The notes below the pieces were generated by a model. That model saw only the letters and a list, made by a program, of their open reading frames with translations, was not told the DNA's origin and did not search any database. From a virus, in the IMG/VR virus record IMGVR_UViG_3300015241_000018, positions 1 to 51,415 of that record: 51,415 nucleotides of DNA; one strand, 5' to 3'. This document shows positions 3,165 to 19,854 of the stretch, one piece after another (the first letter of the stretch is position 1; each line of letters begins with the position of its first letter). The translations under genes were made by a program, and so were the position numbers.

Positions 3165-3347
3165 ATGACTAAGCATACCATGCCTAGATTCGCCATACTG
3201 GTTACACGAGACGATAACAATTGGTGGCACTACGTATTAGTGGTGGACTACAAGACCACTACTACTACGGGTCCATTCGAAACAGCTGACTCTGCATTCA
3301 AGGCAGCGAAGAACGATGCCAATAGGAAGGGATTGTTACCGGTATGA
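3165..3347 (+). CDS. Hypothetical protein, 60 aa
   Basis: ATG after a CAGGGGAATACAA ribosome site. Short soluble product with a WWHYVLVVDY strand and a run of five Thr; predicted small alpha/beta fold. The last bases overlap the start of the NYN nuclease gene (ATGA), suggesting coupled translation. Confidence 0.6.
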   Translation: MTKHTMPRFAILVTRDDNNWWHYVLVVDYKTTTTTGPFETADSAFKAAKNDANRKGLLPV

Positions 3348-3931
3348 AACAGTACGATCGTAAGCGATACGGTCTGTTCATTGATGGGTCTAACCTGTAC
3401 GCTTCAGCTAAGGCCCTCGGTTTCCGAGTGGACTTCTCCAAGATCCACTCTCATTTCTCTAGCATGGGTGACGTAGCCCATGCCATGTACTTCACAGCCC
3501 TGCCACCTAAGACGGTGGAGTCTCCATTGCGTAGGATGGTAGACTTCGTGGAGTACAATGAGTTTACTTTGGTCTCCAAGGAGACTCATACTCACTACGA
3601 TTCAGACAATACACCACGATTGAAGGGGAATATGGATGTTGAGATCGCAGTCTATATGGAGGAGGTTGCTGGTACCCTTACTGATGTCGTTCTGTTCAGC
3701 GGTGACGGCGACTTTCGTTGTCTCATTGAGTCCGTACAGCGTCGTTTCGGTGTCCACGTCACGGTCATATCCACTCGTAGTCTGGTATCGGATGCGCTGC
3801 GACGACAAGCCAACAAGTACATTGACTTGTCCACACTCAAAGACAAGTTCATTCATCAGGCCGATGTGGTCAAGGTGAGTGAAGAAATTAAAGAGAAGCG
3901 TCGTCGGTTCTTGTTCGGCAAAGGGGAATAA
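3344..3931 (+). CDS. NYN-domain (LabA/DUF88-like) putative RNase, 195 aa
   Basis: Residues 9-170 fit the NYN/LabA-like PIN-fold family. Visible markers are FIDGSNLY (Asp14, Asn17), KGNMDVEIAVYME (Asp98) and LFSGDGDF (Asp121, Asp123), which supply the acidic metal-binding set. Family members are metal-dependent RNases or RNA-binding proteins in the cytoplasm. The C-terminus is a Lys/Arg-rich tail. The start overlaps the upstream gene (ATGA) and an AAGGGGAATA site follows for the next gene. In an early operon it may degrade host RNA, but the substrate is unknown. Confidence 0.8.
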   Translation: MKQYDRKRYGLFIDGSNLYASAKALGFRVDFSKIHSHFSSMGDVAHAMYFTALPPKTVESPLRRMVDFVEYNEFTLVSKETHTHYDSDNTPRLKGNMDVEIAVYMEEVAGTLTDVVLFSGDGDFRCLIESVQRRFGVHVTVISTRSLVSDALRRQANKYIDLSTLKDKFIHQADVVKVSEEIKEKRRRFLFGKGE

Positions 3932-8626: not shown

Positions 8627-10179
8627 TAGAACAACACGTTCCTTGCGATGACTGTGGCTCATCTGATGCTAAGTGTACCTATGAGGATGGCCACAGTTAT
8701 TGTTTCAGTTGTTTAACCTATACTCCACCGGATCATAAAGATGAAGAGATACATACTTACGAGTACCTGCCCTGGCGTGGTGTGGACAAGCATACATTCG
8801 CCCTATACGATGTCAAAACTAAGATCGGATCTGAGGGCAATCCAATTTCTATTGGTTTTCCTTATCCTAATTCTTCTTATAAAATAAGGACACTAGATAA
8901 GAAAGCATTCTACTCAATAGGCGATATAGCTAAAGCTGGATTGTTTGGCCGAAATAAGTTTGCGGCTAGTAGTCACAAGACCGTGACAATCACAGAAGGG
9001 GAACTAGATGCTCTCTCGCTTTATCAAGTGGTACGCAGTCCTGTCGTCAGTGTTCACAGCTCTGCTAGTAGCGGAACTGACGTTGGCATCGATCGTGCCT
9101 GGGTCAACAGCTTCGAAAGAATTGTACTCGCATTTGATGCGGACGAGGCAGGACGTGAAGCAACACGTAAAGTCGCAAAGCTGTTTGATTACAACAAGGT
9201 TTTCGTGGTGTCCTTCCCTGGTGGAACCAGAAAAGACGCCAATGACTACCTCCGAGCCGGAGAACGCGACGAACTCTACACCATCTGGGCCAACGCCCGA
9301 CGCTTCCTCCCCGACGAAATAAAGTCTAGCTGGGAAGACTTCAAGAAGATACTTGCTGAGAAACCAAGGGACGGAGTTCCTTACCCCTTCCCTACTCTGA
9401 ACTACATGACGTATGGCATCCGCACTGGTGAGTCCGTACTAATTACGGCCATGGAGGGTGTGGGCAAAACAGAGGTGATGCATGCAATCGAACACCAGCT
9501 CCTTACGGCGACAGAGGATCCTATTGGCGCAATCTTCCTTGAAGAACCGAAGCGCCGGCATTTACAGGCGATTGCGGGCATTCATCTCGCTCGTCCCGCC
9601 CACCTGCCGGATAGTGGTGTCACTGACGCGCAAACTTTCCAAGCCGTACAGGACGTGGTTAGGACGGATGAGCGTCTTCACATCTATTCTCACTTTGGAT
9701 CAGATGATCCTGAGGTTATTCTCGATACAATTAGATTTCTGGTATCCGCACGTGGTTGCCGTTACATTCTTCTCGACCACATCACTATGGTTGTTAGTGG
9801 TCTTGGAGGGAAAGATGAAAGAATTTCGCTCGACTATCTCTCAACTCGTCTCGAAATGATGGTTAAAGAGTTAGACTTCGCGTTGATCGTTGTCAGCCAT
9901 GTCAACGACGATGGTTTAACTCGTGGAAGTCGTAATATCTCTAAGATTGCAGACATTCGTCTCGATCTATACAGGGATATTACGGCGTCAGATCCTATCA
10001 CGCGCCGCATAACGCGGATGGTCGTGAGCAAGAATAGGTTCTGCGGTCGCACAGGACCGGCAGGGGAACTGCTATTCGATCCTGCGACATACACTCTCAA
10101 CGAGGATATGGGTTATGGCACTAGCTCGTTCGCGAATGACAATTCACCCGGTGGCAGAAATGCTGCAATGGTCGCTTGA
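8584..10179 (+). CDS. T7 gp4-like primase-helicase, 531 aa
   Basis: Makes RNA primers and unwinds DNA at the fork. Visible: a zinc-binding domain with CDDC (21-24) and CFSC (40-43); a TOPRIM primase core with EGELDA (139-143) and DADEAG (185-190); a RecA-like helicase with Walker A EGVGKTE (291-297), Walker B ILLDH (395-399), motif VVSHVND (436-442) and the LTRGSRNISK loop. Length is close to T7 gp4 (566 aa). The only start before the zinc motif is TTG at 8584, after GAAGAGAAGAG and inside the preceding gene, implying coupled translation. Confidence 0.95.
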   Translation: MVNQILPLSKSTRIVEQHVPCDDCGSSDAKCTYEDGHSYCFSCLTYTPPDHKDEEIHTYEYLPWRGVDKHTFALYDVKTKIGSEGNPISIGFPYPNSSYKIRTLDKKAFYSIGDIAKAGLFGRNKFAASSHKTVTITEGELDALSLYQVVRSPVVSVHSSASSGTDVGIDRAWVNSFERIVLAFDADEAGREATRKVAKLFDYNKVFVVSFPGGTRKDANDYLRAGERDELYTIWANARRFLPDEIKSSWEDFKKILAEKPRDGVPYPFPTLNYMTYGIRTGESVLITAMEGVGKTEVMHAIEHQLLTATEDPIGAIFLEEPKRRHLQAIAGIHLARPAHLPDSGVTDAQTFQAVQDVVRTDERLHIYSHFGSDDPEVILDTIRFLVSARGCRYILLDHITMVVSGLGGKDERISLDYLSTRLEMMVKELDFALIVVSHVNDDGLTRGSRNISKIADIRLDLYRDITASDPITRRITRMVVSKNRFCGRTGPAGELLFDPATYTLNEDMGYGTSSFANDNSPGGRNAAMVA

Positions 10180-12463: not shown

Positions 12464-13435
12464 ATGGCTAAGCCAAAGCCTATTCCCGTTCCCATCAAGA
12501 TCATCAGCACAGAGGAACTCGAAGCTAACCGAGCAGCCCTAGCTGAACTCAACAAGGAACTTCTTCCTGAGCCTGAGGCAGGTGCTCTGTCCTTCCTGCG
12601 TAAGAGCATTGATGTTCCTACGACAGCTGAAGTCAAGGACATGATCCATCAGGAGATAATGGAGTACAATGTTCTCACAAATATTGAACTCAAGATTGGT
12701 GAGGAGATCAAGACTCTTCCAGAAGAGCCGAGACACTTTCTCTTCCCTGAAATCTTGGCGGCCACCAACGCGGACATACCAGCTGCTCTTGTGGGCCCTG
12801 CTGGTTCTGGTAAATCTACTCTTTGTGAACAAGTGGCTACCGCTCTGAGTCTGAAGTACTTCCTTCAGAACAGTGTGAGTGGTGATCACCAGCTCGCAGG
12901 GTATATGGATGCACACGGTCACTACCAGACTACATCATTCCGAACTGCGTTCGAGATGGGTGGACTGTTGTTGATCGATGAGGTTGATACCTCTGATGCT
13001 GGTGCCCTGAAGTGGGTGAACACTGCCTTGGCCAATGGTCACGCCATGTTCCCCGACAAGCCTGAGCCTGTGCGTAGACACAAGGACTTCCGCATCATGA
13101 TTGCCGCCAATACCTTCGGCAATGGTGCTGACCGACTGTACGTTGGTGCCAATCAGTTGGATGCCAGTACCTTGGATCGGTTTGTGTTCTTCGACTTCGT
13201 CTATGACGAGAAGTTGGAGACCATGTTGTCCGGTAATCTTCTATGGGCCAAGCGTGTGCAGAACCTGCGTAAGGCAGCTGCCACTGAGAAGGCTCGTATC
13301 GTCATCTCTCCCCGAGCTACCATCAATGGAGCCAAGCTCTTGGCTGTCGGTTGGAAGCAGTCAGTGGTTGAAGACCGCTTGATTTGGAAGGGTATCGATG
13401 AGGAACTGAAGAATAGAATTCGGAAGGCAGCCTGA
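12464..13435 (+). CDS. MoxR/CobS-type AAA+ ATPase, 323 aa
   Basis: Strong TAAGGAGG ribosome site. After a helical N-terminus, Walker A GPAGSGKST is at 111-119, Walker B LLLIDEVD at 168-175 and the sensor AANTFGNG near 216-223; this pattern belongs to the MoxR/CobS branch (AAA_5-like). Such ATPases remodel proteins or load metal together with a von Willebrand A-type partner gene next door. Here the adjacent gene overlaps (TGATG) and shows a VWA-like pattern. Phage substrates of these pairs are unknown. Confidence 0.85.
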   Translation: MAKPKPIPVPIKIISTEELEANRAALAELNKELLPEPEAGALSFLRKSIDVPTTAEVKDMIHQEIMEYNVLTNIELKIGEEIKTLPEEPRHFLFPEILAATNADIPAALVGPAGSGKSTLCEQVATALSLKYFLQNSVSGDHQLAGYMDAHGHYQTTSFRTAFEMGGLLLIDEVDTSDAGALKWVNTALANGHAMFPDKPEPVRRHKDFRIMIAANTFGNGADRLYVGANQLDASTLDRFVFFDFVYDEKLETMLSGNLLWAKRVQNLRKAAATEKARIVISPRATINGAKLLAVGWKQSVVEDRLIWKGIDEELKNRIRKAA

Positions 13436-14442
13436 TGCAGATGTTATCTGGCAACGCCAAAGAATTGAATGATCTCATCCCCAAGCAGGCTTGGAGTTCA
13501 ACTTGGGATAGCCCTGAAACATTCGGAAGACACATCGCATCACTAGACAAGAAGAAAGCTTGGACTGATGCAGGTTGGAGTGGAGACAAAGATTTCTGTG
13601 GCACCGACGACATGGATGAAGCTCTCCGACTATCTCAGAATGGTTGGAAGGAAGGTGTGGCAGGCATTGAGAGGCTCAGAACTAAGATCCTCGCAATGAA
13701 CCCCACCCATCCTAAGATCAAGAAGTACTCTATCGCTGGGTCCTACCCTGATGTGGCTCGTGCTGTATCAGGTAACCCCATGAACATGAGAACTCTTGAC
13801 TCAGCTAAGTCCAGGCGTAGACCTGTGATCACGCTGCTCTCCAACATGTCAGCTAACTGTAATGTGGCTAAGGAGTCCATCACCAACAGAGCATCTGTCG
13901 TAGCTGCAATCATAGATCAGATTGAAGCTGCGGGTTATGCTTGTGAGGTGGTTGCTATTGCACCTACCTCAGGCAGTACTTGGGATGGAAAGCCAGGATA
14001 CAGCGCTTGCACATCTGTGATGGTCAAGCGAAGTAACCAAGCTGTCGATCTAAGTCGACTATCTTTTGGCATGGGTCATGCAGCCATGTTCAGACGCATG
14101 GTATTTGCTGACTGGGGTTCTTCTGAACCTAATAAGGAAGGACTCGGTCGTGGCTTAGGTCACAGTCACAACATCACGGATGAGTTCGTCGATGACCTGA
14201 ACTTCAAGAACATCTACGTTCTACCTTCAGCAGAAGGGAACAGTTCTAAGTTCAAGACGGAAGACGTCGCAGCTATTGTTGGTCTGAGGTTGATTGTGGA
14301 CTCACTCAAGAAACAGGGATGCCCAGCGTTTGCTGGGCCTCTCACTCCTGATATTCCATTAACTGATGCTCAGAAACAAATCCATACCATCAGAACCATT
14401 AAAGATCTCGTGGGAGACATCATAGACGGTCTTGAATTCTAA
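13435..14442 (+). CDS. Putative partner of the MoxR/CobS-type ATPase (VWA-like), 335 aa
   Basis: The ATG overlaps the ATPase stop. Residues 1-125 include AGSYPDVARAVSGNPMNM, a pattern I associate with phage proteins found beside CobS-like ATPases. From residue 131, VITLLSNMSANCNVAKESI and then a helix and AACEVVAI-like strand resemble the first half of a VWA domain, but the metal-binding DxSxS reads SNMSA (136-140), so metal binding is probably lost. Inference: adaptor that links the ATPase to its substrate. No direct evidence of activity. Confidence 0.6.
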   Translation: MQMLSGNAKELNDLIPKQAWSSTWDSPETFGRHIASLDKKKAWTDAGWSGDKDFCGTDDMDEALRLSQNGWKEGVAGIERLRTKILAMNPTHPKIKKYSIAGSYPDVARAVSGNPMNMRTLDSAKSRRRPVITLLSNMSANCNVAKESITNRASVVAAIIDQIEAAGYACEVVAIAPTSGSTWDGKPGYSACTSVMVKRSNQAVDLSRLSFGMGHAAMFRRMVFADWGSSEPNKEGLGRGLGHSHNITDEFVDDLNFKNIYVLPSAEGNSSKFKTEDVAAIVGLRLIVDSLKKQGCPAFAGPLTPDIPLTDAQKQIHTIRTIKDLVGDIIDGLEF

Positions 14443-16439: not shown

Positions 16440-16585
16440 TTAAAGATATTGATGATCTATTAAATAGATTGGATGATCCCTCTAATACAGATGAATACGG
16501 AGACTGGTCCTTTAGATTTTCTGATGTTGAAAGAGATTTAATTATTGATGCATTAATACTTTACAAGGAGATGAATATTAAGTAA
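16436..16585 (+). CDS. Hypothetical acidic protein, 49 aa
   Basis: TTG start overlapping the polymerase stop (TTGA), 9 nt after GGAG, and ending in TAATG, where the stop overlaps the next start. Sequence begins IKDIDDLLNRLDDPSN and ends ERDLIIDALILYKEMNIK, giving an acidic helical protein. Tight packing between polymerase and SSB supports it being real. Confidence 0.6.
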   Translation: MIKDIDDLLNRLDDPSNTDEYGDWSFRFSDVERDLIIDALILYKEMNIK

Positions 16586-17079
16586 TGGTATTTTACGGCA
16601 AGACAGAAACAATATACATACAAGGTAAGGTGGCTTGGTTCAAGCCTAACATACCTAATAAGTGGGATAAGTATTCTGTACAGATACACCCACAGCCTAA
16701 GGACTTGGAAGTCATCCGTGACTTACAGGCCAGAGGTCTTAAAAATCAAATGAAGAAAGACGATGATGGTTATTTCATACATTTCACACGACCTATATCC
16801 AAGCGATTTCAATCGGGTAAGATACGGGTATTCGAGCCCATCGAGGTATTCGACAAAGCTGGTGTTCCTTACGATGGTCCTGTTGGTAACGGATCAGATG
16901 CGACCCTGAAGATTGAAGTCTACGAGCATGAAGTTCCCGGTGGTGGTAAATCTGTTGCTGCCAGGTGGGTGTCAGCTCGTATCGATAACTTAGTTCCTTA
17001 CGAACCTGATCGGGACCTCACGGAAGGTCAACGCGAAGCCGCAGCAGGTTTGAAAGAGCAGCCAGAACAACTCTTCTGA
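16585..17079 (+). CDS. Single-stranded DNA-binding protein, T7 gp2.5-like, 164 aa
   Basis: Position beside the polymerase and the pattern KVAWFKPNIPNKWDKYSVQ, NGSDATLKIEVYEHEV and WVSARIDNLVPYEP match phage OB-fold ssDNA-binding proteins. The acidic Glu/Gln-rich tail ends in Phe, like T7 gp2.5, where the terminal Phe contacts polymerase and helicase. Coats exposed single strands at the fork and in recombination. The start overlaps the upstream stop. Confidence 0.8.
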   Translation: MVFYGKTETIYIQGKVAWFKPNIPNKWDKYSVQIHPQPKDLEVIRDLQARGLKNQMKKDDDGYFIHFTRPISKRFQSGKIRVFEPIEVFDKAGVPYDGPVGNGSDATLKIEVYEHEVPGGGKSVAARWVSARIDNLVPYEPDRDLTEGQREAAAGLKEQPEQLF

Positions 17080-17380
17080 CCGTTGGAGTGCTAAACACTT
17101 TTCAACAAACAGATCGCTAAGAAGCGAGCCGGGGAAAAGTTGTTCTAGCTTTACTAGGAGTCGACCGTGGGTGAAAACTCTTCCCGTGAAGATTGGGTAA
17201 GTCCCTGCACCCCGAGAGAATAACGGCGCTCTCCGTATTATTTAACACCAGCAACGCGAACCCTCCCCGCTCCGGGATACCCCAACCTCCCGCAGGACTC
17301 AGGTGCCTGGTTGCTGTGACTGCCTCGTATAGCCAGGCAGACCAAGAGACCGTTTGACCGTTCGTCTGCTAAAACGGTAG

Positions 17381-17475
17381 AGTATCATCCTACTGGGAAT
17401 ATAGCTGTTCGGGTGACGCCCCAGAACTTCGTCAGCAATAGACCATGAGTGTGGGTGCAATCCCCACTGGCACTA
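17381..17475 (+). ncRNA. tRNA-like element 1 (class II-like, non-canonical)
   Basis: T-arm GTGGG-TGCAATC-CCCAC at 17451-17467 is followed by TGGCACT, which pairs with AGTATCA (17381-17387) at six of seven positions. Between them lie a 3-bp D-like arm with GG in its loop (17390-17404), a bulged hairpin 17407-17427 and a short GTC/GAC variable-arm-like stem. Not a canonical tRNA. Confidence 0.3.
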
Positions 17476-17642
17476 CTACGGTGGCGAACCTAATAGGAGT
17501 GCATGGTGAGCAAGACAGTGAGCGAAGGTAGCGTGAGCGCCAGCACATGTGTATCATTAACACAATGACTGTCAGATCAAATAGATGTCGCGTATGCTAG
17601 GGTCGGTAGTGACCGATGCTATAACCTCTGTAGAGGGCGCGT

Positions 17643-17743
17643 ATGAGGGTAAAGGCCTTGCCTTAACTGGCTAGAGTGTCTGAAGCGATAGTAGGTGGTA
17701 GAATTAGATGTCCAACCGGAGAGTTCGATCCTCTCCCCCCGTG
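17643..17743 (+). ncRNA. tRNA-like element 2 (T-arm with weak remainder)
   Basis: T-arm GAGAG-TTCGATC-CTCTC at 17719-17735 has a classic T-loop. The following CCCCCGT pairs with ATGAGGG (17643-17649) at six of seven positions, and TA follows as expected for positions 8-9. D and anticodon arms are not convincing. Confidence 0.25.
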
Positions 17744-17780
17744 TATCGGGGACTGGCGGCTGTAGGACTGGACCACTTGG

Positions 17781-17857
17781 TATGTGGAGGTTCGTGGACT
17801 AGGGATATACACATGGGGTGCAACCTGTGCATGTCAGTTCAAGTCTGACCCGGATAT
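17781..17857 (+). ncRNA. tRNA-like element 3 (tRNA-sized)
   Basis: T-arm GTCAG-TTCAAGT-CTGAC at 17833-17849. CCGGATA (17850-17856) pairs with TATGTGG (17781-17787) at six of seven positions; the span is 76 nt. D-like arm GTTC/GGAT with GG in the loop (17790-17806), and a bulged anticodon-like stem CACA/TGTG (17810-17829). The 5' strand competes with an alternative hairpin at 17773-17787 whose 7-nt loop TTGGTAT would read as a Thr (GGT) anticodon. Confidence 0.3.
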
Positions 17858-17914
17858 CGTAATGAAGTAGGACACCGATAAAAGCGAGACCCGACCGGAC
17901 AACGTCATCGGTAT

Positions 17915-18410
17915 TGGCGTTAGCTTAGCGGTAAGAGTTCACCTCTCAACTACTCTGACCCGACTGCTAGGAAGCGCGTCATCTGGACTGCGCCTTCAGG
18001 AAGCGTAGACGCAGCATTCTATGACTGTACACTGGATACCTTGTAACCTCCAGGCTATTGCAGCAGTATGTACGATGCCGGAAGGCCTTAGGATGTGGAG
18101 CAACGATTATTGATCGTCTGGCTCAATATAGACTGCGTACATTCGCAGGGATGTGGTCTTCGTACCGTTCGGATGGTAGAAAGTATGTATCACTAGGTCA
18201 GGTTCCTAGCATTGAGCATGCGACGGCCAGGATACGTAAGAGCATCAAGCAACAGACTACTGTGACTAGGTGTACCGCTCAAGGACTGTGAGCCAGAGAG
18301 CATACGCTGAATGGGTGGAGTAAGACGCCTCTAACGCTGTCTAATAACATGGATGGTAAGAGCCGCAAGCCGGTCCAGCAAGTCCATATAACTGAATTCC
18401 AGTAACGCCA
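17915..18410 (+). ncRNA. Candidate 496-nt structured RNA closed by a perfect 8-bp helix
   Basis: TGGCGTTA (17915-17922) pairs perfectly with TAACGCCA (18403-18410). Inside are hairpins GCGTC/GACGC (17976-18012), ACGAT/ATCGT (18103-18117), CTGCG/CGCAG (18133-18148), TACC/GGTA (18163-18178), CTAGG/CCTAG with a 7-nt loop (18193-18209) and ATGGA/TCCAT (18349-18387). The 5' end resembles a tRNA acceptor and D-arm (GGCGTTAGCTTAGCGGTAAGAG), but no T-arm precedes the 3' strand. No terminator is seen. A new ornate RNA is inferred. Confidence 0.4.
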
Positions 18411-18549
18411 GATAAGCGTGAATCTAGCTGATGGAGGAGCCAATGCCCAAAAGAGCCTCTCAACAGCAGCCCCAGCCTCCTTAATACAACCAAGATGGTG
18501 GGGAGTGCCGAGTACGAGTACTCCCCAAGCCACAGAAGGAGTAGATGTT

Positions 18550-18900
18550 ATGAGTAGATTTGGAGATATGATGACCATCGCGAAGATGCTCAATGACTCT
18601 AAGTCAGAGAAGCCATCTAAGCCGTGGAAGAAAGCTTCTAAGGAAAAGGATCCAATCGCTATACTGATTGAATTTCAGGAGAAGATGGATCGATATAATA
18701 AATGGCAGAAAGACCAGGAGAAGATTAACAAGAAGGAAGATAAGAAGGAACACAAAGGCTTGCTACCAGCCGACTGGTCAGTAGCCAAGCAGACAGCCTT
18801 CTTTGCCTTGGCTGGTCCACCGATAGCCATAGGATATTTATTCGGAATTATTATTCTGGTACGTATGCTCTCAGTATTTATTGTAGGATCACATGGATGA
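18550..18900 (+). CDS. Small membrane protein with charged N-terminal domain, 116 aa
   Basis: ATG at 18550 is 8 nt after AAGGAG. Residues 15-75 are very Lys/Glu rich and probably a helix or coiled coil (KEKDPIAILIEFQEKMDRYNKW). Residues 83-113 form one or two hydrophobic helices ending near the C-terminus. The upstream in-frame extension to 18418 runs over the hairpin at 18500-18526 and is rejected. Holin-like in form but not near the lysis genes; function unknown. Confidence 0.65.
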   Translation: MSRFGDMMTIAKMLNDSKSEKPSKPWKKASKEKDPIAILIEFQEKMDRYNKWQKDQEKINKKEDKKEHKGLLPADWSVAKQTAFFALAGPPIAIGYLFGIIILVRMLSVFIVGSHG

Positions 18901-19064
18901 TAAGATGTGAATACTGCACACAACCTGAAGAAGAATTATTGAAGCTAGATAAAGAACTATTAGAAATGAAAGAGTTAATACTAAAAGGTGATAAAAGATA
19001 TAAACACATTAATCCCGGACATCTACAAGCTAGTAGGCGGGAAGGAGAATTGGCTACAAGGTGA
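18897..19064 (+). CDS. Small CxxC coiled-coil protein, 55 aa
   Basis: The ATG overlaps the preceding stop (ATGA). MIRCEYCTQPEEE carries a CxxC that could hold half a zinc site, followed by a Leu/Glu/Lys helix (LLKLDKELLEMKELILKG) and KRYKHINPG. It overlaps the nuclease gene by 77 bases in another frame. Short, but well placed. Confidence 0.55.
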   Translation: MIRCEYCTQPEEELLKLDKELLEMKELILKGDKRYKHINPGHLQASRREGELATR

Positions 19065-19854
19065 CATCGCTAATCAGTTCACAACTGAACTCACTATTAA
19101 ACTCCAAGGATCCCTTGAAGAGAAAGGCAGCCCTAGGCTACGTCTCTCAGGTATGGGCCCAAAGTGCCACTGCGCACTGTGGCACTCAATACATTCCGCA
19201 ATGGATGCGGAACCACTCCCCCCTTGGGCTAAAATCAAATACACCTACGGACACATACTTGAAGCGCTTGTAATCGCAATGGCCAAGGCTGCCGGCCATG
19301 AAGTAACAGGAGAACAGGATGCTGTATCTGTTGACGGGATCGTGGGGCATAGAGATTGTGTCATTGACGGCTGCATCGTGGACGTTAAGTCTGCTTCTAG
19401 CCGTGGCTTCCAAAAGTTCAAGGACCGTTCAATCACATCCGATGATACTTTTGGCTACTTGGATCAACTTGATGGCTATATTGTGGGGTCCCTTCATGAC
19501 CCCCTTGTTCGGGATAAAGAGCATGGCTATCTATTAGCAATCGACAAAACATTAGGACATATGTGTTTATATGAGCATACTGCGCGCGAAGAAAGTATTA
19601 GAAAAAGAATTCGAGATTATAGAGATGTCGTCGCTCTTAGTAGAGCTCCACCGTGCACTTGTGAACAAGTTCCCGATGGAAAGTCCGGAAACATTAAGCT
19701 GGGCATTAGAGCAAGCTATAATGCGTTTAAGTACCAGTGTCACCCACAGCTTCGAACCTTTCTCTACGCAAGTGGACCAGTCTACCTCACCCATGTTGCC
19801 AGAAAGCCAGACGTAATTGAGATAGACAAATACGGTAAAGTAGTTTATAATTAA
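18988..19854 (+). CDS. RecB/Cas4-type PD-(D/E)XK nuclease, 288 aa
   Basis: Motifs in order: YGHILEAL (Glu92), GHRDCVIDG (Asp123), VDVKSAS (Asp132, Lys134) and YLDQLDGY (Gln160), the core of Cas4/RecB-like exonucleases. Probably degrades DNA from ends during host DNA breakdown, recombination or packaging, taking the place of T7 gp6. Cys60/Cys62 and Cys223/Cys225/Cys251 resemble the split Cys set of iron-sulphur members, but spacing is not standard. GTG start with a weak ribosome site. Confidence 0.85.
   Translation: MIKDINTLIPDIYKLVGGKENWLQGDIANQFTTELTIKLQGSLEEKGSPRLRLSGMGPKCHCALWHSIHSAMDAEPLPPWAKIKYTYGHILEALVIAMAKAAGHEVTGEQDAVSVDGIVGHRDCVIDGCIVDVKSASSRGFQKFKDRSITSDDTFGYLDQLDGYIVGSLHDPLVRDKEHGYLLAIDKTLGHMCLYEHTAREESIRKRIRDYRDVVALSRAPPCTCEQVPDGKSGNIKLGIRASYNAFKYQCHPQLRTFLYASGPVYLTHVARKPDVIEIDKYGKVVYN

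Follow-up and report, generated by a model that had tools for sequence, protein, structure and literature searches.

A large structured RNA that is new to Rfam 15 is encoded in the DNA analysed here, a 51,415-base IMG/VR virus record which is referred to as the window. The existence of this RNA, about 1.3 kb long, is near certain and as secure as the comparison of sequences allows, and its most likely class is a new large ornate phage RNA in which T-arms are used as tertiary modules. A new class had been suggested by a sequence-only reading of the interval 17915-18410, and strong covariation, the absence of an Rfam match and the absence of coding bear this out. The explanation that best accounts for the whole, and to which a probability of about 50% is given, is that the new RNA acts itself, contains T-arm modules, ends in a 3' arrest cassette and originated at a tRNA locus. 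Phage RNAs that are both structured and very large are rare; neither GOLLD nor ROOL, whose cages consist of RNA only, has a known function. The window RNA would be another such class and comes with handles, namely the exact T-arms, a single origin with empty sites, and an (R/Q)PP-stop peptide; about 80 natural variants are on hand.

Phage group and genomic setting

The DNA polymerase of the window phage finds its best matches, 33-37% identical, in Zobellviridae (Roseobacter phage CRP-4, Vibrio phage ICP2), and its head-tail adaptor reaches 45-47% identity at best, again to Zobellviridae including these two phages. Both phages share with the window the gene order polymerase - small gene - Cas4-like exonuclease; in CRP-4, unlike in the window, the small gene and the exonuclease gene that flank the island slot abut, and there is no RNA island. 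Similar DNA was not found in annotated phage records. About 80 relatives were taken from IMG/VR, and the enlarged set comprises 83 islands, some of which are near-duplicates. The RNA-bearing phages are a large, uncultivated family known so far from environmental sequence data alone. A polymerase profile search of 84,980 bacterial and archaeal genomes found no prophage relatives; because no genome in this collection carries a relative, the island phages are probably lytic.

The RNA is flanked by an SSB-like gene on its left and a Cas4-type exonuclease gene on its right, and it is encoded on the strand that carries the early replication genes:

16585-17079, plus strand: left flanking gene, 164 aa, called 'ssb' for convenience (SSB-like); syntenic in relatives, and also in outgroups where detectable
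18988-19854, plus strand: right flanking gene, Cas4-domain exonuclease (phrog_1990, E 4.3e-21)

The left flanking gene has no Pfam or PHROG match. Positions 17080-18440 hold no convincing gene, a gap of about 1.4 kb, in agreement with the gene-poor island described earlier. A search for an RNA-specific sigma-70 promoter or terminator gave nothing beyond chance. As no promoter of its own was found, and as the conserved RNA of relative L011 starts right after the upstream stop codon, it would likely be transcribed together with the replication operon. It would act as an RNA in its own right.

Extent, covariation and non-coding nature

The limits of the RNA were set by homology, in a collinear nhmmer/MAFFT alignment of the window and 8 relatives (9 phages, 55-87% identity):

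17231-18541, plus strand: whole conserved structured RNA

Its size in the core group is about 1.2-1.4 kb. The interval 17915-18410, proposed earlier as an ornate RNA, is indeed part of this conserved structure, but it covers the 3' part only, and the RNA reaches about 680 nt further upstream and about 130 nt further downstream. RNAalifold gives -369 on the alignment of 17231-18541, -339 on the antisense strand and about -203 in six column shuffles. Covariation among homologues was looked for and found, beyond both slid and parallel-strand controls. Among the collinear sequences, 85-90% of the cells are paired, and double changes are seen in 80 of the 194 predicted pairs (slid controls, at most 46%). 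In a tool-made alignment of the T-arm domain, 89.7% of the cells are paired and both partners have changed in 47 of the 98 pairs, where slid controls reach no more than 46% and 13 pairs; likewise, the 3' part, which holds most of the interval 17915-18410, has 85.0% of its cells paired and 33 double changes in 96 pairs (slid controls, at most 43% and 12). An exhaustive scan that was blind to the fold returned 16 antiparallel helices with at least 3 covarying pairs each, all of them within the fold, against 2 in the parallel-strand control.

Conserved coding across the interval was also looked for. Gap lengths in the alignment of islands are multiples of three in 196 of 974 cases, and no long ORF is held in common; hence the RNA is non-coding except for one short ORF. 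That there is no functional RNA at all, and that chance or hidden coding produced the signal, has a negligible probability. The unremarkable folding of single sequences would suit such an artefact, but the covariation lies far above every control, the indels and the lack of a shared long ORF speak against coding, and the T-arms are strand-specific. Single-sequence folding energy was itself dropped as uninformative: the interval folds no better than its shuffles (z +0.46), and folding windows have a mean z of +0.16 against shuffles. The perfect hairpins pointed out within the interval are for that reason no proof by themselves, and it is comparison that reveals the structure. Energy-based scans would miss this strongly covarying RNA of 17231-18541, as its single-sequence z-scores are near zero.

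Parts of the RNA

The elements upstream of the short ORF, with the evidence for each in brackets, are the following:

17250-17338, plus strand: 5' domain, helix 17250-17255/17310-17315 around hairpins 17273-17292 and 17293-17309, then hairpin 17322-17338 (compensatory changes)
17384-17535, plus strand: second domain, helices 17384-17394/17527-17535, 17404-17409/17514-17519 and 17412-17418/17430-17436 (compensatory changes)
17451-17467, plus strand: T-arm-like hairpin T0, GTGGG-TGCAATC-CCCAC, with U55 replaced by G, in some relatives only (sequence)
17588-17646, plus strand: helix 17588-17597/17637-17646 around hairpins 17598-17621 and 17625-17636 (alignment helices 1-3)
17647-17650/17889-17892, plus strand: outer pairs of the T-arm domain
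17674-17876, plus strand: T-arm domain, closed by 17674-17681/17870-17876 and 17685-17689/17856-17860 (helices 4, 8, 9)
17718-17736, plus strand: T-arm T1, GGAGAG-TTCGATC-CTCTCC (loop nearly invariant, stem covarying, 100% of cells paired; helix 12)
17737-17751, plus strand: hairpin directly 3' of T1 (helix 13)
17752-17760, plus strand: conserved ACTGGCGGC after that hairpin (invariant columns)
17811-17849, plus strand: T2 module, a GUGNAA-loop hairpin (17811-17830) and T-arm T2 (17833-17849, GTCAG-TTCAAGT-CTGAC) (covariance model R1)
17901-17921, plus strand: local hairpin AACGTCA/TGGCGTT (helix 18; sequences of relatives)
17929-17961, plus strand: hairpin with a 13-nt conserved loop, TCACCTCTCAACT (helix 19)
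18098-18124, plus strand: 3'-domain hairpin, 18098-18101/18121-18124 and 18103-18109/18111-18117 (helices 10 and 11 of the 3' part)
18269-18308, plus strand: 3'-domain hairpin (helix 15: 94% of cells paired, 5 double-change pairs)
18405-18419, plus strand: local hairpin ACGC/GCGT (covarying stems in L003, L013, L018, L004 and L005)

The closing helices 4, 8 and 9 of the T-arm domain have 93-100% of their cells paired and 9 double-change pairs.

The interval had been delimited by a perfect 8-bp helix across its ends. The two strands, TGGCGTTA at 17915-17922 and TAACGCCA at 18403-18410, are present as claimed, but a helix between them as the boundary of the RNA was rejected, its occurrence being at chance frequency. 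The island contains 6 perfect 8-bp pairs whose strands are separated by 300 nt or more, where shuffles contain 9.8 +/- 3.9, and the claimed helix has 62.5% of its cells paired against 60.3% in shuffles, with no covariation (8 aligned sequences). Both strands belong instead to separate local hairpins. The 5' strand pairs as AACGTCA (17901-17907) with TGGCGTT (17915-17921), and the counterparts of this hairpin are CACCA/TGGTG in L005, L011 and L012 and CTCAG/CTGAG in L004 and L008. Similarly, the 3' strand forms ACGC-cagataa-GCGT (18405-18408 with 18416-18419), for which relatives have CACGC/GCGTG, CCCTC/GAGGG, CCCAC/GTGGG or GAACAC/GTGTTC. The stretch read as 'acceptor/D-arm-like' is not a tRNA end in the relatives; it is the covarying hairpin 17929-17961 with its conserved loop.

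T-arms without tRNAs

The tRNA flavour of the region is real, though it had been located in the wrong place. The window has two canonical T-arms, 17718-17736 and 17833-17849, with covarying stems and nearly invariant loops, and no tRNA gene by ARAGORN, Infernal or Rfam. When T-arms are counted as a G-UUCRANY-C loop on a stem of at least 5 bp, 80 islands (180 kb) contain 85 on the plus strand and none on the antisense strand, while a shuffled set contains 0.05 and 918 kb of neighbouring sequence contains 10. The enlarged set yields 95 T-arms in 58 of 83 islands (some islands being near-duplicates), as a rule 1-3 canonical arms per RNA. Loops with a single-base variant of U54, C56, R57 or A58 occur 0-3 times each and closing pairs other than G-C not at all; the G55 variant, as in T0, occurs in 19 copies in 17 islands. 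For the T2 module, 11 of the 12 pairs in its covariance model show double changes. With E < 0.01, this model (R1) has matches in over 30 contigs, diverged islands included; every match is on the plus strand, and nearly every one falls within the syntenic island. The module was absent from the marine Zobellviridae searched with the model, and the pattern GCGTAGACGCAGCAT gave chance matches only in viral contigs outside the clade. Some divergent islands hold inserted ORFs. As the deepest members are unalignable and 25 of the 83 islands are without a perfect canonical T-arm, the entire RNA is taken to be homologous throughout the clade on the grounds of position, T-arms and the T2 module.

Two observations concern the sequences next to the arms. 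The stretch 17692-17716, 5' of T1, has the sequence GGTGGCGGAAT, exactly or nearly, in L004, L008, L011 and L048, a string found also at the start of bacterial tRNA-Leu; the stretch may be a remnant or may imitate a D-loop. The hairpin 17811-17830 beside T2 has a conserved GUG(A/C)A(A/U) hexaloop in relatives, which is possibly a docking or kissing loop.

In tRNA, C56 and the G53-C61 pair are determinants of the elbow contact and of the T-loop, and TruB accepts a 17-mer with GUUYRANYC (PMC7912444). The window T-arms keep C56 and G53-C61, and their sequence matches the minimal TruB/TrmA substrate. Because each canonical arm carries this minimal substrate, the host enzymes TruB and TrmA probably modify U55 and U54, respectively. 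The letters kept are those for the T-loop fold and GG docking together with those for TruB/TrmA, and on this ground the arms are expected to serve as modified tertiary modules. They would adopt the fold that they have in tRNA and bind GG-containing loops in the way that T-loops dock on D-loops, ACTGGCGGC at 17752-17760 being a candidate partner in a stretch where the predicted pairing is poorly supported. The docked arms could build an extended architecture, perhaps a multimeric one, comparable to those of GOLLD and ROOL, which use kissing loops and A-minor contacts (PMC12286853).

The same arms could instead make the RNA a decoy or sponge that titrates or recruits a host factor reading the tRNA elbow (TruB, TrmA, RNase P, the L1 stalk of the ribosome) or that shields phage translation from tRNA-directed defences. 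The arms do match minimal TruB/TrmA substrates almost without exception (PMC7912444), many phages have several per RNA, and outgroups have a tRNA in the same slot. However, about one-sixth of the arms have G55, which TruB could not modify, the rule is 1-3 canonical arms per RNA, and most of the structure is unrelated to T-arms, so that a decoy is improbable. Still less can be said for a decayed tRNA array or for intron-bearing tRNAs missed by ARAGORN, a highly unlikely reading that the several T-arms and the outgroup tRNA in the slot would call to mind. A tRNA covariance model matches the relatives' islands mainly at the T-arm part (positions 46-63) or weakly and in pieces, below cut-off, and decay would not preserve loop letters while stems covary. 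Intron-containing or decayed tRNAs were rejected since the helices beside the T-arms are no acceptor stems and their covariation is that of other structures.

Comparison with known RNA families

The proposed check with Rfam covariance models (GOLLD, ROOL, HEARO, tmRNA) was run. With cmscan and Rfam 15, HEARO included, there was no match in the window at the gathering score, and the only match among 12 relatives was a true tRNA lying outside the island; lax Rfam searches gave chance matches only. For GOLLD (RF02032), the 11 records searched, among them the window, gave no match at E <= 10, and cmscan gave none either; the GOLLD search is one in which matches were reportable, five control genomes having given weak sub-cut-off matches. 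ROOL (RF03087) likewise had none at E <= 10 (11 records) or by cmscan, in a search to which no control genome responded at E <= 10. For tmRNA, ARAGORN and Rfam were negative in the window. In the open-access literature, no description of this RNA class was found.

A kinship with GOLLD or ROOL, as suggested earlier, is thus not supported by the models, with the reservation given for the ROOL control. Like GOLLD, the window RNA is an ornate, phage-encoded RNA of more than 800 nt with conserved and variable regions. It differs from GOLLD in that T-arms, not whole tRNAs, lie inside the RNA, in the (R/Q)PP-stop ORF that follows, and in its one fixed genomic slot in one phage clade. GOLLD is found near tRNAs; in the window no tRNA gene lies beside the RNA, and the same-slot tRNA is confined to outgroups. 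GOLLD has been resolved by cryo-EM as a 14-mer RNA nanocage (PMC12286853). ROOL, too, is a large ornate phage RNA, often close to tRNA islands; the window RNA is longer, has T-arms, lies in another setting and has no match to the model (again in the search without a responding control). With tmRNA and tRNA it shares a T-arm with G53-C61, U54, C56, R57 and A58, as well as the slot in which some outgroups have a tRNA-Thr, whereas it is without acceptor stem, CCA, anticodon, tag ORF and any Rfam or ARAGORN call.

A GOLLD or ROOL RNA that has diverged past detection would share the phage origin, the length above 800 nt and the tRNA-associated slot, which are habits of both (PMC12286853). It is nevertheless very unlikely, as neither model matches, with the scope and control stated above, and as the term 'T-loop' is absent from the text of the cryo-EM paper (PMC12286853).

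Origin in one phage clade

In the polymerase tree, the island marks one clade: all 25 members sampled carry it, with support 100/100 for the clade and a single change on the tree. The RNA was accordingly gained once and never lost, in a clade distantly related to Zobellviridae. Outgroups other than CRP-4 have from 15 to several hundred bases in the slot. A tRNA-Thr stands before the exonuclease gene in the outgroups L271 (6090-6165), L252 (6990-7064), L274, L275 and L276. The slot of L212, a gap of about 100 nt, has a tRNA-like gene at 9911-9985 which scores 49.3 bits, above the Rfam cut-off, and has an odd anticodon loop with an anticodon that ARAGORN could not read. In L210, a sister phage of L212, a 130-nt structured stretch in the same slot (L210:5405-5536) looks like a more degenerate tRNA with acceptor-like AAGGATGG/CCATCCTT.

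The RNA could have arisen at, or replaced, a tRNA gene which some outgroups still keep in the slot. The giant RNA may have grown from the slot tRNA, or tRNAs may have been gained and lost there repeatedly. The empty sites, together with the tRNA-bearing outgroups, would make the emergence of a giant RNA at a tRNA locus open to testing. A bolder, quite unlikely extension is that the phage lineage turned the tRNA locus into a giant RNA machine, with the tRNA elbow as its building block and a self-made ribosome trap at its 3' end. If true, the RNA and a ribosome stalled at the 3' end of that RNA would work jointly.

The 3' end: a Pro-Pro-stop ORF and a small membrane protein

The elements at the 3' end are as follows:

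18444-18485, plus strand: short ORF MPKRASQQQPQPP-stop with Shine-Dalgarno GGAGGAG (Shine-Dalgarno and Pro-Pro-stop ORF in 58/83 islands)
18477-18481/18537-18541, plus strand: possible pairing of CCTCC at the end of the short ORF with the next gene's Shine-Dalgarno (37/40 cells paired; helix 19)
18500-18526, plus strand: 11-bp G+C-rich hairpin between the short ORF and the next gene (covarying, helix 21)
18550-18900, plus strand: protein gene, product of 116 aa, charged in its middle and with one membrane segment at the C-terminus (similar proteins in relatives)

An ORF that has a Shine-Dalgarno sequence and ends in Pro-Pro-stop is found in 58 of the 83 islands, compared with 1 on the antisense strand, 1.6 +/- 1.2 in shuffles and 0-6 for other dipeptide ends. 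The residue before Pro-Pro is R (26) or Q (20), the third base of the proline codons is variable, and the remaining peptide is free. A conserved C-terminus with varying third codon bases is what an arrest peptide would be expected to show. In E. coli, a Pro-Pro at the C-terminus hampers termination (PMC3834316), and TnaC is arrested at a C-terminal proline before the stop (PMC8429421). The window ORF resembles TnaC and YbeL-PP, for which termination arrest is documented, in being a short ORF with a proline codon before the stop (PMC8429421, PMC3834316). It differs from TnaC, which has a single C-terminal Pro24 and needs tryptophan, in conserving only its last three residues, (R/Q)PP, and it differs from both in lying at the 3' end of a giant RNA.

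In the pairing 18477-18481/18537-18541, the pairs are conserved and show little covariation. The CCTCCTTAA of the short ORF (18477-18541 region) can pair with the AAGGAG of the next gene, and it matches the anti-Shine-Dalgarno end of 16S rRNA. After the short ORF, many relatives encode proteins of 65-118 aa whose middle is charged and whose C-terminus has a membrane segment; neither the window protein (18550-18900) nor its relatives belong to a Pfam or PHROG family. A 160-aa ORF in the mechanical listing (18418-18900) starts inside the RNA, and the ATG at 18550 is the likely start.

These features suggest that the 3' end is a translational attenuator. A ribosome that halts on the (R/Q)PP-stop peptide would open the structure masking the next Shine-Dalgarno, would thereby couple the small membrane protein to the RNA, and would possibly also mark the 3' end of the RNA. 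Alternatively, the whole RNA could be a cis-acting leader of giant size which controls the genes for the small membrane protein and the Cas4 exonuclease, the (R/Q)PP-stop peptide being its sensor and the T-arm domain a riboswitch-like element. Such a leader has in its favour the arrest of the TnaC leader peptide at its C-terminal proline (PMC8429421), and the direct succession of RNA, short ORF, hairpin and masked Shine-Dalgarno in the window and its relatives. Even so, it is unlikely, though less so than the other alternatives: the bulk of the covarying structure is found hundreds of bases 5' of the short ORF, several T-arms are needless for regulating a 100-aa protein, and the 3' arrest cassette accounts for regulation by itself. 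To our knowledge, known leaders are also far smaller than the 1.3 kb of this RNA.

Other genes of the early region

The early operon that contains the RNA also encodes, at 3344-3931, a protein with an NYN domain (PIN-like nuclease), which is a candidate processing enzyme. Just upstream of the polymerase, in the region 12464-14442, lies a DUF7192 protein (Pfam PF23822, E 3e-39, 13435-14442), and a phrog_249 'porphyrin biosynthesis' protein (12464-13435) adjoins it.
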